From Candidatus Nitronereus thalassa (GTDB lineage: Bacteria > Nitrospirota > Nitrospiria > Nitrospirales > UBA8639), in contig NZ_JAQOUE010000001.1 of NCBI RefSeq assembly GCF_032191465.1, positions 1,488,001-1,552,000 on the forward strand: a stretch of 64,000 bases of DNA, given 5' to 3'. The notes below the pieces were generated by a model. That model did not search any database, was not told where the DNA came from, and worked only from the letters and a program-made list of their open reading frames with translations. Positions 16,581-51,066 of the stretch are shown here, in pieces; position 1 is the stretch's first letter; the number at the start of each line of letters is the position of its first letter. Made by a program: the position numbers and the translations under genes.

Positions 16581-16706
16581 ACCACTTGCTCCCTCTAATG
16601 TTCTTAGTCCTATTTGGAATGACACTGAGAATCACAGACTCAATGGGGTGGGGTAGGGTTTTGCCAGGCCAATACTGGGAATAAGGAAAGATCCTTCCAA
16701 AGACCG

Positions 16707-22997: not shown

Positions 22998-23022
22998 ACA
23001 AAATTGTTCATAGAATTATTAT

Positions 23023-23231
23023 GTGGGGTGTCGCCCCCACACGACGAGTCCCTTTTGTTTCGGCAAAAGGGACCAAAACCATTTCCGCCTGTGTGCGGCC
23101 CTCCGGGTCCCTCCGCTTCTGGCCCGAATAAAATGGTTCGGGAACTCACTCCAAGGTGCAAAGCCACCTTTCCGCTCAAACAGCCCGAACCAAAAAGTCG
23201 ATTCGGGCCAGAAGCTCCGCCGCACCAAAAG
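23023..23231 (-). repeat. Structured dispersed repeat, copy 1
   Basis: Read on the minus strand, the element ends in two hairpins: GTCCCTTTTG/CAAAAGGGAC with a 6-base loop (23048-23073), then GTGGGG/CCCCAC with a 6-base loop (23023-23040). The body is closed by a 14-bp outer stem, 23116-23129 against 23201-23214, enclosing GGTTCGGG/CCCGAACC and a small AAGGTG/CACCTT hairpin. It fills the gap downstream of accA and lies inverted relative to copy 2. Short ORFs across it follow the repeat and are not genes. Confidence 0.85.
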
Positions 23232-23343
23232 GCGGGAAGACACTGAACAAACAAAACCCATTTTCAAACTTAGGATTTGATAATGTAAACCCCACCGAGT
23301 TCTCATAATCATGCCTACCTAAAAGTTCTTTTTGGTTATGCCC

Positions 23344-23664
23344 TTACCCCTTCACGGGTTCAACAAGAACACCTAAGGCACCACAAAAGCAACCAAAAAA
23401 ATACAAAAGCGTAAACCATCGGGAATTAAATGCCTCAGGAGCAGTTTGGCCTTTAATCGTTTGAATCTCCCAGCCTGATCTTCCAAGCACTCCCCAGGCA
23501 ACTATGCCGAGCGCAACTAGACGAAACCATTTCAATTGGTCTGGATAAAGTTGCAAACTCTCACTGAGAAATGGTGCTAGTAAAATCGCAGAAAAGATCG
23601 CCACCGCAACTATTAGAAAAGCTTTTCCAATTTTCGACAGAACCTTTTTCCATCCATCATCCAT
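23344..23664 (-). CDS. Small hypothetical membrane protein (106 aa)
   Basis: No family recognised. The protein has three hydrophobic segments (about residues 13-33, 46-60 and 83-101) with a Lys-rich N-terminus, consistent with an inner-membrane protein. GAGG lies 9 bases before ATG 23664. It stands alone between repeat copies 1 and 2, which are inverted relative to each other, and no neighbour suggests a role. Its composition is more AT-rich than the housekeeping genes. Confidence 0.65.
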   Translation of the reverse strand: MDDGWKKVLSKIGKAFLIVAVAIFSAILLAPFLSESLQLYPDQLKWFRLVALGIVAWGVLGRSGWEIQTIKGQTAPEAFNSRWFTLLYFFGCFCGALGVLVEPVKG

Positions 23665-23818
23665 AAATTTTTCCTCTACAAAATGTTAGATTGCGATTTC
23701 CCAGTATTATACAGGTCATCAGGCACTCTCTCTGATGCACCATATCGCACCAATGCCAAATCAGTTTAACCACAATACCACCATTGTTTTGCATGAACTA
23801 AAAAGGATCGGCTGAAGC

Positions 23819-24035
23819 CTTGGGCGCGGCTTTCCCGCGGGACCAAATTCGACTTTTCTGGCTAGGGCTGTTTGAGCGGAGCGAGTTTCCGAGCCATTAT
23901 GATTCGGGGCGGTGGATCAGGCACTCCGGAGAGCTTGCTTCATAGCAAGGTCGGAGGGGACGCGCACGGGCAGAAATGGTTTTGGGTCCTTTTGCCGAAA
24001 CAAAAGGACCTCGTCGCGCGGGCGCGAAAGCCCGC
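23819..24035 (+). repeat. Structured dispersed repeat, copy 2
   Basis: Plus-strand copy ending in GGTCCTTTTG/CAAAAGGACC and GCGGGC/GCCCGC hairpins. Both stems differ from copy 1 by paired substitutions that keep the pairing. A middle hairpin CTTGCT-TCAT-AGCAAG (about 23934-23949) is also present. It starts with the family's TTGGGCGCGG and ends 12 bases before the MoaD-like stop codon. Confidence 0.85.
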
Positions 24036-24046
24036 ATAAAATTAAT

Positions 24047-33577: not shown

Positions 33578-33615
33578 ATGGCAATAAAATTTGTAGGGAA
33601 ATTATTTATCTAACC

Positions 33616-33735
33616 AGGGTTTTGCCCCCGCCGAGGAGGTTCCTTCGTGGCTGGCTCGGGATATGCTCTTTTGTTTTGCCAAAAAGACCCAAAACCATTT
33701 TTACCTGTGCGCGACCCTCAAGGTCCCTGGGACTT
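33616..33735 (-). repeat. Structured dispersed repeat, copy 3 (degraded)
   Basis: A partial copy between the MFS gene and the cyclophilin gene. It keeps the landmarks CTTTTGTTTTGCCAAAAAG and CCCAAAACCATTT followed by CTGTGCGCG, but the hairpin arms have lost several pairs and the body is missing. Confidence 0.6.
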
Positions 33736-47241: not shown

Positions 47242-47420
47242 TCGGCTTCACCTGTTAAACTCTACCTTGCAAGAAAGAAGCTAAGCAAATGCTCCGATAG
47301 ATTTATCACCATAAACCAGAAAAATCTTTTGCCAAGAGAACTATTAATGAGTTTTTGTAGGTCGAATTGACTATAGAAATTATAGAAAGATGAAAGGAGT
47401 TAATTTTGATGAAGATTTTT
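47242..47420. other. AT-rich gene-free leader upstream of mrp
   Basis: No supported ORF, RNA or operator is visible. It borders the repeat-rich zone starting at 47421. Confidence 0.4.
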
Positions 47421-47449
47421 ATGCGGGGTTTCAGCCCCACACGACGAGT
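47421..47449 (-). repeat. Solo terminal hairpin of the dispersed repeat (copy 4a)
   Basis: ATGCGGGGTTTCAGCCCCAC followed by ACGACGAGT is the end hairpin and its conserved flank, but the second hairpin and the body are missing. It lies about 80 bases from copy 4 in the same orientation. Confidence 0.55.
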
Positions 47450-47486
47450 CACGTGCGATTACCCGCGGCTCAAATTCCCCATGCAG

Positions 47487-47515
47487 TCATCCCCGACATC
47501 CTTTATCGGGGATCC
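47487..47515. repeat. Hairpin between the solo end and copy 4
   Basis: ATCCCCGA and TCGGGGAT make an 8-bp stem with a 9-base loop, a form common among extragenic repeats of many bacteria (CATCCCCGA...TCGGGGATCC). Confidence 0.5.
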
Positions 47516-47528
47516 AAGTTTATTTTAT

Positions 47529-47662
47529 GCGGGTTGTCGTCCCCGCGCGACGAGGTCCTTTTGTTTCGGCAAAAGGACCCAAAACCACTTTCGCCCGTGC
47601 GCGTCCCCTCCGATCTTGCTCAGAAGCAAGCTCTCCGGGGGGCCTCCGCCTACGCACAACGC
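47529..47662 (-). repeat. Structured dispersed repeat, copy 4 (internally deleted)
   Basis: Contains the end hairpin GCGGG/CCCGC, the second hairpin GGTCCTTTTG/CAAAAGGACC (as in copy 2), the CCAAAACCA and CCGTGCGCG landmarks, and the middle hairpin CTTGCT-TCTG-AGCAAG on the minus strand. The outer stem and the rest of the body are deleted. It ends in CGCACAACGCG, matching the far end of the family. Confidence 0.75.
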
Positions 47663-47885: not shown

Positions 47886-48929
47886 TTAAACAAGTGAATC
47901 CATCCATAAAGTAAATTCCTCTGCTGCCCTTACGAGTTCGCCAACTTGATCCCTTTTGTTGATATTTACTGTTTTGCCGGAATTATCTTTATAATAGCAG
48001 TCTCCCTCGTGCATAGAATTTCTTGCTCTGTATAGGTAAAGTAGTTTTTGGCTATTAGCGGGATCCAGTTTCTTGAATGAAGGTTTAGATGCCTCCTGCA
48101 GGACTTTTTCTATCTTATCGTGGAACTGTAATCCTTGGGCGGGAAATACAGCTCCCCAGATAACGCAATAATAACGAAGAATTGCATCGATAGACGATGC
48201 AGCTGCTCTAATTGCAGATCTTAATTCCCCATTAGACAGGAGACGTCGAGCATCATTTAACTCATTATAGGTGTTATAGTGCTTTCGGATCTCATTAAGT
48301 TTTTCACGTATTCTCGGCAAATCCGTTGCTACATCAGTTGGGTTTTCAATTGGCATTATCTGGCTCCATACAAACTCATTTAATTGACCAAATGGTGTAT
48401 GACCAACTATGGATGCCACACCAGGGCCTATATATTCACCTATATCTGTTAAGCAAAATTTTTCGCTAGCACTAGGTCGTCTATTTCCATCAAAATCGAA
48501 CATTTGGTGGCCAAGATATTCTCTCCTGTACGCTTTTTGGGTAGAAAATTGGTCCTTATCTTTCTTTAGATCTGCTACATGTTCTTTTAGGTGCCAACAT
48601 GCAAATCTCAAATAAGGAAGGACCATTTTCAAAATTTCGTTATCTAATTGTTCACTGCTTGCTATATTTAAATTGGCCTTCCCCTTGATACATTTAGGCC
48701 ATCGTTCTTTCATATACACATCCACATATGGATCAATATATTCATATGCTCCTGCACTTGGGGAACTTGGGATAAGCTGAGCAAAGTTAACTTCAAATGA
48801 TTTATCAATAATTTCAAACTGGATTTGGAATTTTAAATCTGGCCGTTGCTTTGGACTCGTGTTTATTCCCCCAAGAGATCTATTTTCAACATTCTTCCTA
48901 GATATAAATTGATAGACCTCCAATTCCAA
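47886..48929 (-). CDS. Hypothetical protein with HEPN-like C-terminal motif
   Basis: A 347-residue soluble protein markedly more AT-rich than its neighbours, suggesting acquisition by transfer. No named family is recognised with certainty. The C-terminal half is helical and contains LYRARNSMHEG (Arg301-x5-His307), matching the R-x4-6-H motif and the usual [LIVY]-x-x-R-N-x-x-x-H-x-G context of HEPN domains, many of which are RNases in toxin and antiviral systems. The N-terminal 200 residues are of unknown fold. The start is TTG 48929, firmly set by AGGAGG eight bases upstream. No antitoxin is adjacent. Confidence 0.7.
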   Translation of the reverse strand: MELEVYQFISRKNVENRSLGGINTSPKQRPDLKFQIQFEIIDKSFEVNFAQLIPSSPSAGAYEYIDPYVDVYMKERWPKCIKGKANLNIASSEQLDNEILKMVLPYLRFACWHLKEHVADLKKDKDQFSTQKAYRREYLGHQMFDFDGNRRPSASEKFCLTDIGEYIGPGVASIVGHTPFGQLNEFVWSQIMPIENPTDVATDLPRIREKLNEIRKHYNTYNELNDARRLLSNGELRSAIRAAASSIDAILRYYCVIWGAVFPAQGLQFHDKIEKVLQEASKPSFKKLDPANSQKLLYLYRARNSMHEGDCYYKDNSGKTVNINKRDQVGELVRAAEEFTLWMDSLV

Positions 48930-49022: not shown

Positions 49023-49403
49023 CTAATTGATCTGCCTCTGGTAGTACTTCACCAAACAACCTGATTCATAATAGAATAGAAACAACTGCCCAAAGCTAAG
49101 CAGGCCATGAGACACGGGATAGGGCTCTGCATGCGCGATAGTAGTGTTCCGTTCATCTTCGACCAGCTTTGCCCGCCAAGGAAGGTTCTCGAACGACTCA
49201 TCTGTGTCAGGCCAGCCTTTGTCAGGTCGGTTCAGGCTAAGCTCACGCTGAAATCCGTACGATTCGATTGTCTCGTCAGCCTGCTCCCTGGTCATTCCCT
49301 TGGATAAAGCATCTACAACCATGAAGTCATTTGTTACGTATCCGACAACAACGAAAGCACAGCTCAAACTAAGGACCACCGACTTCAGGGACCTCACGCA
49401 CAT
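49023..49403 (-). CDS. Small hypothetical exported or membrane-anchored protein (126 aa)
   Basis: Family not recognised. A hydrophobic N-terminal segment (about residues 8-23, VVLSLSCAFVVVGYV) looks like an uncleaved signal or anchor, followed by a charged central region with MTREQADETIESYG and a C-terminal FGQLFLFYYESG segment. AAGGTAGG precedes ATG 49403. It stands on the same strand as the HEPN-like gene, with a 93-base gap, inside the repeat-bracketed accessory zone. Confidence 0.55.
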   Translation of the reverse strand: MCVRSLKSVVLSLSCAFVVVGYVTNDFMVVDALSKGMTREQADETIESYGFQRELSLNRPDKGWPDTDESFENLPWRAKLVEDERNTTIAHAEPYPVSHGLLSFGQLFLFYYESGCLVKYYQRQIN

Positions 49404-49486
49404 TGCCTACCTTAGATATGCATAACAATGTTTAGATGGATCCGAGTATGAGAAGGATCCCCGGGTTTCTGTCAGGATTTCACGCC

Positions 49487-49789
49487 TTCGTTATTTCTAA
49501 AGAAGAATACGCCGAGGTCGTCGGCTTTTCAATTGGAGTACTTTTAGCTTCATTTATCACGGAGTCTCCTGCGTTGGGCGCGGCTGGGCGAGCACCCCGA
49601 ATCCTACTTCTCTGGCGAAGATTGTCTGAGCGCAGCGAGTTTCTGAGACTTCTTGATTCGGGGTGGTGGACCAGGCACCCCGGAGAACCTGCTTCTGAGT
49701 AGGATCGGAGGGGCCGCGCACGGGCAGAAATGGTTTTGGTCCCTTTTGCCGAAACAAAAGGGACTCGTCGTGTGGGGGCGAAACCCCAC
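49487..49789 (+). repeat. Structured dispersed repeat, copy 5 (extended form)
   Basis: The core at 49570-49789 has an outer stem CACCCCGAATC (49593-49603) / GATTCGGGGTG (49655-49665), a middle hairpin CCTGCT-TCTG-AGTAGG, the second hairpin GTCCCTTTTG/CAAAAGGGAC and the end hairpin GTGGGG/CCCCAC. About 80 further bases upstream (from TCGTTATTTCTAAAG) are shared with copy 6 only, so these two form a longer subtype. Short ORFs within it are repeat-derived. Confidence 0.85.
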
Positions 49790-49991
49790 TATAATAATTC
49801 TGCAAAGATTAGGTTGTCAGAAATCGTTTCTTATACACATAGAAACCTAGATATTCCCGCGAATACTTCGGCCCAAAAATGACGAAAGGGTCATGTTTAC
49901 TTTTCTCCCCCTAACGCACCAATCTTGGATTTTTACTACCAACTGCGAGGTTTCAGGGGAAAGAATTAGCGGAATTCGCAAGAACGATTTG

Positions 49992-50249
49992 CTAGGCGGT
50001 TTTCTGGCTGGCTGTATTTCCAACAACCTGCCATCCTGCCTCAATGGTGTCGGTTGACAAATCAGCACCACAATCCCATTCGACAAAGTACCCGCCATTG
50101 ATAACCTTCACAAATTCTTTCTGGTCTCGAAGGGCCTCGAATGCCTCATATTGAAGATACGGGCTGACATCAAATTGGCCAACGCGACCATCATCCGCAA
50201 CGATAGATAAAACCCAGTTTGATTGTGCCTGAAGTTCTGTAATTCTCAT
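49992..50249 (-). CDS. DUF2442 family protein
   Basis: An 85-residue protein of the DUF2442 family: an N-terminal ITELQAQSNWVLSIVADDGR strand pair, FDVSPYLQYEAFEAL, and the C-terminal GGYFVEWDCGADLSTDTI. The family is often encoded beside DUF4160, and such pairs have been suggested to be toxin-antitoxin-like; DUF2442 would be the antitoxin candidate. Here it overlaps the DUF4160 gene by four bases (ATGA), so translation is coupled. The pair is flanked by repeat copies 5 and 6. Confidence 0.85.
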   Translation of the reverse strand: MRITELQAQSNWVLSIVADDGRVGQFDVSPYLQYEAFEALRDQKEFVKVINGGYFVEWDCGADLSTDTIEAGWQVVGNTASQKTA

Positions 50250-50518
50250 TGGTCAAGTCCTTTGATTGGAAATGGTTTCTTACCATTGACAGCCAAATCC
50301 CAGTCCGCCAGTAAATCTTCTTGATGAATTTCGATCCATGCGACAACCAATTTGTGCTTATTCGGAGGAAGATTTCCGGCCAGAAGTGTTCCGTCAGGGA
50401 TTGAATATACGGCCACATCGCCTTGGTAATCGGCATGAATATGGGGTACGTGATGTTTCTCAATATCTCGAAAAAACATCCTGATCAGAATCCCGTAAAA
50501 CATGGAAATTGTTGGCAT
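50246..50518 (-). CDS. DUF4160 family protein
   Basis: A 90-residue DUF4160 member recognised by MPTISMFYGI at the start, FRDIEKHHVPHIHADYQG near residue 15, and a C-terminal KHKLVVAWIEIHQEDLLADW helix. The His-rich KHHVPHIHA segment is the family's hallmark. Function is unproved; it is the upstream partner of DUF2442 and the toxin candidate if the pair is a toxin-antitoxin module. AAAGGG lies about ten bases before ATG 50518. Confidence 0.85.
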   Translation of the reverse strand: MPTISMFYGILIRMFFRDIEKHHVPHIHADYQGDVAVYSIPDGTLLAGNLPPNKHKLVVAWIEIHQEDLLADWDLAVNGKKPFPIKGLDQ

Positions 50519-50662
50519 ACTCTTTTTGCCCTTTAATCTGCAGTCCTGCTCCCACGACGTTGGGAGACATCTTTTTCAATTTCTTTTGCTCCCGAATCCA
50601 CACCTCTTCTCAACCTCTGGACAAGAGAAGGATTTTCGGTTTTCTTTCTGGATAACACCGTA

Positions 50663-50954
50663 TCGTCATTTCTAAAGAATACGCCGGAACCGTGGTCTTT
50701 TCAATCGGTACTGTCCGTGGCTTTGTTTAACACAGCGACCCCTGCGTTGGGCGCGGCGGAGCTGGAGTCTCGAATCGGCTTTTCGGCTCAGGCTGTTTGA
50801 GTGGAGAGGTGGCTTTGCACCTCGTAGCGAGTTTCTGAGCCATCTTGATTCGGGGTGGTGGACCAGGCACCCATAGTTCCGCGCACAGGCAAAAATGGTT
50901 TTAGTCCCTTTTGCCGAAACAAAAGTGCCTCGCCGTGCGGGGACGACACCCCAC
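50663..50954 (+). repeat. Structured dispersed repeat, copy 6 (extended form)
   Basis: Same orientation as copy 5 and shares its extra upstream 80 bases (from TCGTCATTTCTAAAG). The inner stem is GGCTCAG/CTGAGCC, with the optional AGGTG-GCTTTG-CACCT hairpin also seen in copy 1. The middle hairpin is lost and the second hairpin has two broken pairs (GTCCC against GTGCC), so this copy is decaying. With copy 5 it forms direct repeats around the DUF4160-DUF2442 pair. Confidence 0.8.
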
Positions 50955-51066
50955 AAAGATAAAAGCAGATCCTTCACTCGGATCAGGATGACAAAGTAAA
51001 ATACTAGTTTCCCGCTTGCTACTGCGGGAATGAAGAGATTTTTTTTCAACAGGCCACGAACGCACA

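Follow-up and report, generated by a model that had tools for sequence, protein, structure and literature searches.

A DhiTA-like gene pair of Candidatus Nitronereus thalassa probably rides as a cassette between dispersed double-hairpin repeat ends

The DUF4160-DUF2442 gene pair of Candidatus Nitronereus thalassa, a predicted DhiTA-like toxin-antitoxin module, probably constitutes one cassette of a dispersed system, in which members of a chromosomal repeat family, termed ends herein, would serve as docking sites for cargo exchange. The ends were found to cluster under an orientation rule, to carry covarying stems, to enclose largely small toxin-antitoxin or defence cargo, and, in several instances at sites shared with a relative, to be inherited together with their flanks around differing cargo. 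From these observations we infer that recombination at the ends replaces, adds, or removes cargo.

In the window, i.e., the whole stretch of 64,000 nucleotides analyzed here (NZ_JAQOUE010000001.1, positions 1,488,001 to 1,552,000), the pair occupies a site between mrp and an SNF2 helicase gene, with the order left end, cargo A, end copy 5, DUF4160-DUF2442 pair, end copy 6, and SNF2 helicase gene. The left end is inverted (47519-47645, minus strand; 106.9 bits with the R1 model, double hairpin at 47519-47614) and is adjoined by an extra, truncated or decayed end (47413-47506, minus strand; 23.3 bits). Cargo A comprises two minus-strand ORFs, namely one of 347 aa (47886-48929) showing a weak HEPN-like match (15.4 bits, below the Pfam cut-off of 22) and one of 126 aa (49023-49403) showing no family match. 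Copy 5, on the plus strand, consists of an inner extended part (49420-49596) and a core (49597-49799; 113.2 bits with the R1 model, double hairpin at 49704-49799), in which hairpin 1 (GTCCCTTTTG-CCGAAA-CAAAAGGGAC, 49739-49764) is followed by hairpin 2 (GTGGGG-GCGAAA-CCCCAC, 49772-49789) and an AT-rich outer tail. Copy 6, likewise on the plus strand, consists of an inner part (50622-50868) and a double hairpin (50869-50964; 89.7 bits with the R1 model), whose distance to the helicase stop codon is approximately 100 bp; since both of its stems contain mismatches, copy 6 is judged to be partly decayed. Two small repeats often abut cassette ends, i.e., a CGTC-REP-like repeat, GTCATCCCCGACATCC-TTTA-TCGGGGATCC, and a second one, GATCCTTCACTC..CAGGATGAC; they occur at 47484-47516 and 50967-50994 of the window and also beside ends at loci L049, L050, L058, L061, L065, and L068.

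The DUF4160 gene (50246-50518, minus strand), coding for a DhiT-like putative toxin of 90 aa (Pfam 83.2 bits, cut-off 23), precedes the DUF2442 gene (49992-50249, minus strand), coding for a DhiA-like putative antitoxin of 85 aa (50.7 bits, cut-off 23.9). The two genes overlap by 4 bp (ATGA), which makes their coupled translation plausible, as the preliminary description of this DNA had proposed. DhiTA of Dickeya dadantii, for which toxicity and neutralization by the partner have been demonstrated, is also a DUF4160/DUF2442 pair with the toxin gene first and a 3-bp overlap (PMC8198452). The present pair shares with DhiTA the adjacent domains, both scoring above the Pfam cut-offs, the toxin-first order, and the gene overlap, whereas it falls short of both NCBIfam equivalog cut-offs: the DUF4160 protein scored 84.1 bits against DhiT (cut-off 100), and the DUF2442 protein only 17.2 bits against DhiA (E 0.005), a negligible match far below the cut-off of 200. 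"DhiTA-like" is thus a fair name, and the toxin-antitoxin character suggested earlier is supported by domain families and gene order. Within the operon (49992-50518), conservation is strikingly uneven between the partners, the DUF4160 toxin being 79-87% identical to its relatives (L261 in genome G017 and L298 in genome G001) and the DUF2442 partner approximately 52%.

The preliminary description had regarded copies 5 and 6 as a private pair of approximately 300-bp direct repeats, between which recombination could remove the module. Two same-strand copies were indeed found on either side of the gene pair, at about 49490-49799 and 50665-50964. The extra stretch that they share is also real, but it extends over approximately 130-150 bp instead of the 80 bases described, and its supposed absence from every other copy holds only inside the window, since at least seven further ends contain it (L042, L046, L054, L055, and L068 in the same genome; L218 and L237 in G001). 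Copies 5 and 6 are approximately 67% identical to each other (query 9-318); copy 5 is nearer to ends elsewhere, being 88-90% identical to one on contig 2, and in the extra stretch copy 6 is 78% identical to an end at 3.15 Mb versus 73% to copy 5. Because the copies are only 67% identical and are not sisters, looping-out of the module between them is not supported. Plain homologous recombination between the two, which the direct orientation and a single right end without the gene pair in G001 (see below) would suit, is thus unlikely to account for the locus, given in addition that the extended part occurs in other ends, that the structure also comprises an inverted left end and a second cargo, and that cargo A differs in G001 as well. 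The repeats belong to a genome-wide family, and the first interpretation, right in spirit in its removable toxin-antitoxin cassette between repeats, was too narrow and is only partly supported.

In the 4.0-Mb genome of the organism, the repeat of copy 5 matched 52 pieces, and the core motif marked approximately 55 ends. Pairs of ends closer than 3 kb numbered 25, versus 2.1 expected and a maximum of 9 in 5000 random placements; 17 of them were left/right, 7 tandem, and 1 reversed. When this genome, G001, and the named contigs were taken together, 46 outward pairs were opposed to a single inward pair (binomial P 7e-13), and 48 pairs were same-strand tandems. In the organism's own genome, 38 of 49 outer neighboring genes are transcribed toward the end, i.e., ends tend to sit downstream of genes, a bias that may reflect target choice or selection. 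The window contains a second complete cassette (23013-24045) between accA and a ThiS/MoaD-like gene, in which a 106-aa ORF (23344-23664, minus strand) lies between a left end (23013-23236, minus strand) and a right end (23843-24045, plus strand), both located by the repeat search and the R1 model, as well as a decayed solitary end (33604-33724, minus strand; 57.7 bits with the R1 model).

From inside to outside, an end consists of an inner part of 100-230 bp, hairpin 1 with a stem of approximately 10 bp around TTTTG-CCGAAA-CAAAA, the linker CTCGTCG, hairpin 2 of the type GCGGGG-NCGAAA-CCCCGC, and an AT-rich tail; the double hairpin measures approximately 100 bp, and its hairpins point outward from the cargo. 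In an alignment of 71 ends from two genomes, 97.6% of the stem cells were paired, as compared with at most 61% when the partner was slid by 1 to 3 columns, and two-sided changes, carried by 128 cells, were present in 8 of the 16 stem pairs. The outer stem alone occurs in many alternatives (GTCC/GGAC, GCAC/GTGC, TCAC/GTGA, TCCC/GGGA, CTCC/GGAG, and ACAC/GTGT). This covariation, together with the many outer-stem alternatives, indicates that a folded single strand appears to be a conserved feature of the ends. No match for the repeat was obtained in Rfam at E up to 1, and no description of it was found in the literature, including by hairpin sequence. Selection for unlike left and right stems within a cassette was considered and dropped, as identical stems numbered 0 of 14 versus 3.0 expected in the organism's own genome (P 0.02) and 6 of 18 versus 5.6 elsewhere. 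At locus L041 (4561-4656), two half-ends are fused into a palindrome (hairpin 2, linker, hairpin 1, linker, hairpin 2), which may have been left behind when a cassette between inverted ends was lost.

The 49 cargo ORFs included many of toxin-antitoxin or defence families, namely BrnT, ParE, HigB, HTH antitoxins, HEPN/MNT-HEPN, and AbiU2, and further CAP12/Pycsar TIR, PtuB-like HNH, SNase, ORF6N, DUF4160, and the PADLOC candidates S35 and S05. The 79 flanking ORFs examined as a control belonged mostly to housekeeping families with few matches to defence models, a contrast that is qualitative, being based on the top 25 families listed, and that PADLOC model counts alone do not reproduce. Toxin-antitoxin pairs among the cargo were BrnTA, HigBA, ParDE, and the DhiTA-like pair. 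Other copies of the repeat flank small gene pairs too, including other DUF4160 genes: such genes lie within approximately 1.2 kb of an end twice in G001 and once each in G002, G034, and G017. The closest DUF4160 relative seen (87%) is the one in G017, a genome of another genus, with an end approximately 1.1 kb away; the majority of DUF4160 loci have no nearby end. At L229 (G020:C1:1400000-1419000), in another genus, eight same-strand ends within 13 kb separate HigBA and other toxin-antitoxin-like genes in an integron-like array.

Covarying hairpins lying downstream of genes would also be expected if the ends were RNA or transcription elements, such as insulators, terminators, or mRNA stabilizers, placed incidentally around accessory islands. 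Both outer ends of one cassette, however, are the same element in opposite orientation, the ends show no fixed relation to the cargo strand (29 to 20 in the organism's own genome) and have no T-run, and the same sites change cargo. The bias in the neighboring genes can also be explained by selection against hitting promoters, and we regard this explanation as very unlikely.

The fate of ends and cargo was followed between species at approximately 80% DNA identity, mostly in draft assemblies. In G001, which belongs to the same genus, the mrp-SNF2 site contains three ends in the order left-left-right with BrnTA, HEPN, and other cargo; the same helicase gene is immediately preceded by a single right end, the site contains no DUF4160 gene, and its cargo A proteins show no relationship to those of the window. 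Among the 42 G001 ends, the left end of the locus finds its best match, an ortholog, in a left end of the corresponding G001 site, whereas for copy 6 the G001 right end ranks 28th and is no ortholog; the right side of the locus was accordingly rebuilt, and G001 gives no clean picture of the state before. The empty site with a single repeat, proposed earlier as a check in relatives, was found only in part, i.e., one right end before the helicase gene and no gene pair, but with other cargo and a non-orthologous end. At five shared sites, the end in the organism's own genome found an orthologous G001 end as the best of 42, and the alignments ran from the flanking gene through the end, stopping near its inner border where this could be seen. 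As the ends are inherited but the cargo differs at shared sites, gain and loss of cassettes at the ends are well supported. The notion that a repeat-flanked cassette can be gained or lost therefore survives in general, on the evidence of the G001 site and of other cargo-flanking copies, though not by way of a private pair of copies 5 and 6. Beside ends in another Nitrospirales genome (L113), within unrelated flanks, the same HigBA operon (585 bp) recurs with 73% DNA identity and 80 and 87.5% protein identity. Two further differences between the genomes were observed: a solitary end is present in an intergenic region of G001 (L240:13866-14046) and absent from the corresponding part of the window (16581-16694), and an orthologous site with three ends and HigBA cargo in G001 (L223, L246) retains only a remnant hairpin in the organism's own genome (L045:5837-6031).

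Inverted ends that face outward and enclose 0.5-2.5 kb of cargo, in many dispersed copies, recall a non-autonomous MITE-like transposon with long terminal inverted repeats that is moved by a DDE transposase in trans. Such a transposon is an improbable origin of the ends: no target-site duplication above background was detected in 22 pairs (permutation P 0.87; AT-rich boundaries limit the power of this test), covarying stems are unexpected of DDE ends, and tandem same-strand pairs are numerous. Mobile insertion cassettes and MITEs with cargo, which similarly combine inverted ends and passenger genes with no transposase inside, differ from the present cassettes in the same three respects.

The hairpin ends, their high copy number, the absence of target duplications, and the preference for sites downstream of genes are equally features of REP/REPIN or TIRtron-like repeats, which are mobilized by Y1 (HUH) tyrosine transposases (RAYT/TIRYT) and sometimes carry cargo, and repeat families of TIRtrons are known (PMC3733652). 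REP/REPIN/BIME elements and TIRtron TIR families resemble the ends in being high-copy intergenic hairpins with compensating variable stems that form inverted pairs and lie downstream of genes (PMC3733652, PMC3116915), but the ends are much longer, enclose gene cargo on the kilobase scale, and show neither a Y1 link nor a GTAG tag. No Y1 transposase was found in the end-rich genome of the organism or in G005, G012, G017, G021, G026, and G034; conversely, G003, G006, G007, and G008 have Y1 transposases but no ends, and none of the 21 Y1 loci examined was flanked by an end. CGTC-tagged REPs are characterized by the CGTC tag, an AT-starting stem of 8-9 bp, a loop of 4-5 nt, and a CCA tail (PMC3733652); CGTC does occur between the hairpins of the ends, which nevertheless have neither an AT-starting stem nor a CCA tail, so that only the tag is similar. 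Mobilization by a Y1 transposase was thus considered quite unlikely.

By analogy, the cassette system would work like an integron or an array of dif modules. In chromosomal integrons, too, small and promiscuous cargo genes, many of them for toxin-antitoxin systems or defence, form arrays separated by folded sites of one orientation, whereas the present ends lack attC boxes, are dispersed, and include an inverted left end; an integron integrase is not required on present evidence. A true integron, with the ends as attC sites for an integron integrase, would explain the array behavior, the toxin-antitoxin cargo, and the folded recombination sites. It is extremely unlikely, however, since no conserved RYYYAAC or GTTRRRY boxes were seen at the outer end in the 71 aligned ends inspected, the ends are spread over the chromosome instead of being gathered next to an intI gene in a single array, and just two tyrosine recombinases, presumably XerC and XerD, are encoded by the complete genome G012 despite its 18 or more ends. 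Tyrosine recombinases are present in all genomes surveyed, the organism's own genome having five unclassified ones, and apart from the low count in G012 their presence is uninformative. The outer tail of the ends resembles the XerC arm (CGCATAA) in some copies only, and no XerD arm or half-site was recognized by eye. Plasmid dif (pdif) sites are 28-bp XerC/XerD sites on plasmids, whereas the ends are chromosomal and 200-330 bp long. In pdif modules of Acinetobacter, toxin-antitoxin and other cargo lies between recombination sites, at which shuffling, inversion, and loss take place (PMC13141974); toxin-antitoxin and other cargo between sites is common to both systems, as rearrangement and loss at them would be.

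Among 148 genomes of the phylum, strong matches to the repeat were limited to one family, inside which its occurrence is patchy between genera and species; in genus g4, for example, G005, G012, G021, G026, and G034 are rich in ends, and G024, G030, and G036 have none. In the named contigs, the repeat was found in Nitrospirales and also in some Gammaproteobacteria. Most ends of genus g4 and of some Gammaproteobacteria stand alone, and the bracketing of cargo is hence not universal. The occurrence of the double hairpin outside Nitrospirota suggests horizontal spread or a wider, ancient family. At L082, L136, L069, L101, and L104, on contigs named as Gammaproteobacteria or marine bacteria, the same double hairpin is present, solitary and intergenic where it was read in detail.

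In the mechanism that we propose, the ends would act as docking sites at which cargo, alone or together with one end, is exchanged, inserted, or removed through recombination, and such events would generate arrays such as left-A-right-B-right. At the present locus, the module and copy 6 (or copy 5) would have been gained in the lineage of the organism or lost in that of G001. Neither an excision circle, nor polymorphism within a species, nor an enzyme for the ends was observed. Exchange could proceed by RecA-type recombination between ends, with relatives supplying the DNA, or through a recombinase that recognizes folded single-stranded hairpins; the covarying hairpins favor an enzyme reading folded single-stranded DNA, although they could also reflect a role as RNA. 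After entry, the toxin-antitoxin genes would probably stabilize the cassette. We put forward only tentatively, as somewhat doubtful, the more specific model of a gene-cassette system that spans the chromosome and differs from both integrons and dif modules, in which a putative recombinase acting on the folded double-hairpin ends inserts, stacks, and swaps cassettes for toxin-antitoxin functions and phage defence at fixed docking sites of Nitrospirales.

If the ends are true exchange sites, relatives of nitrite oxidizers would possess a reservoir of dispersed cassettes for toxin-antitoxin functions and phage defence that is analogous to integrons yet lacks both their enzyme and their sites, and which protein, if any, moves the ends would be a directly testable question. 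The covarying double hairpin also offers a simple marker for finding new defence genes.
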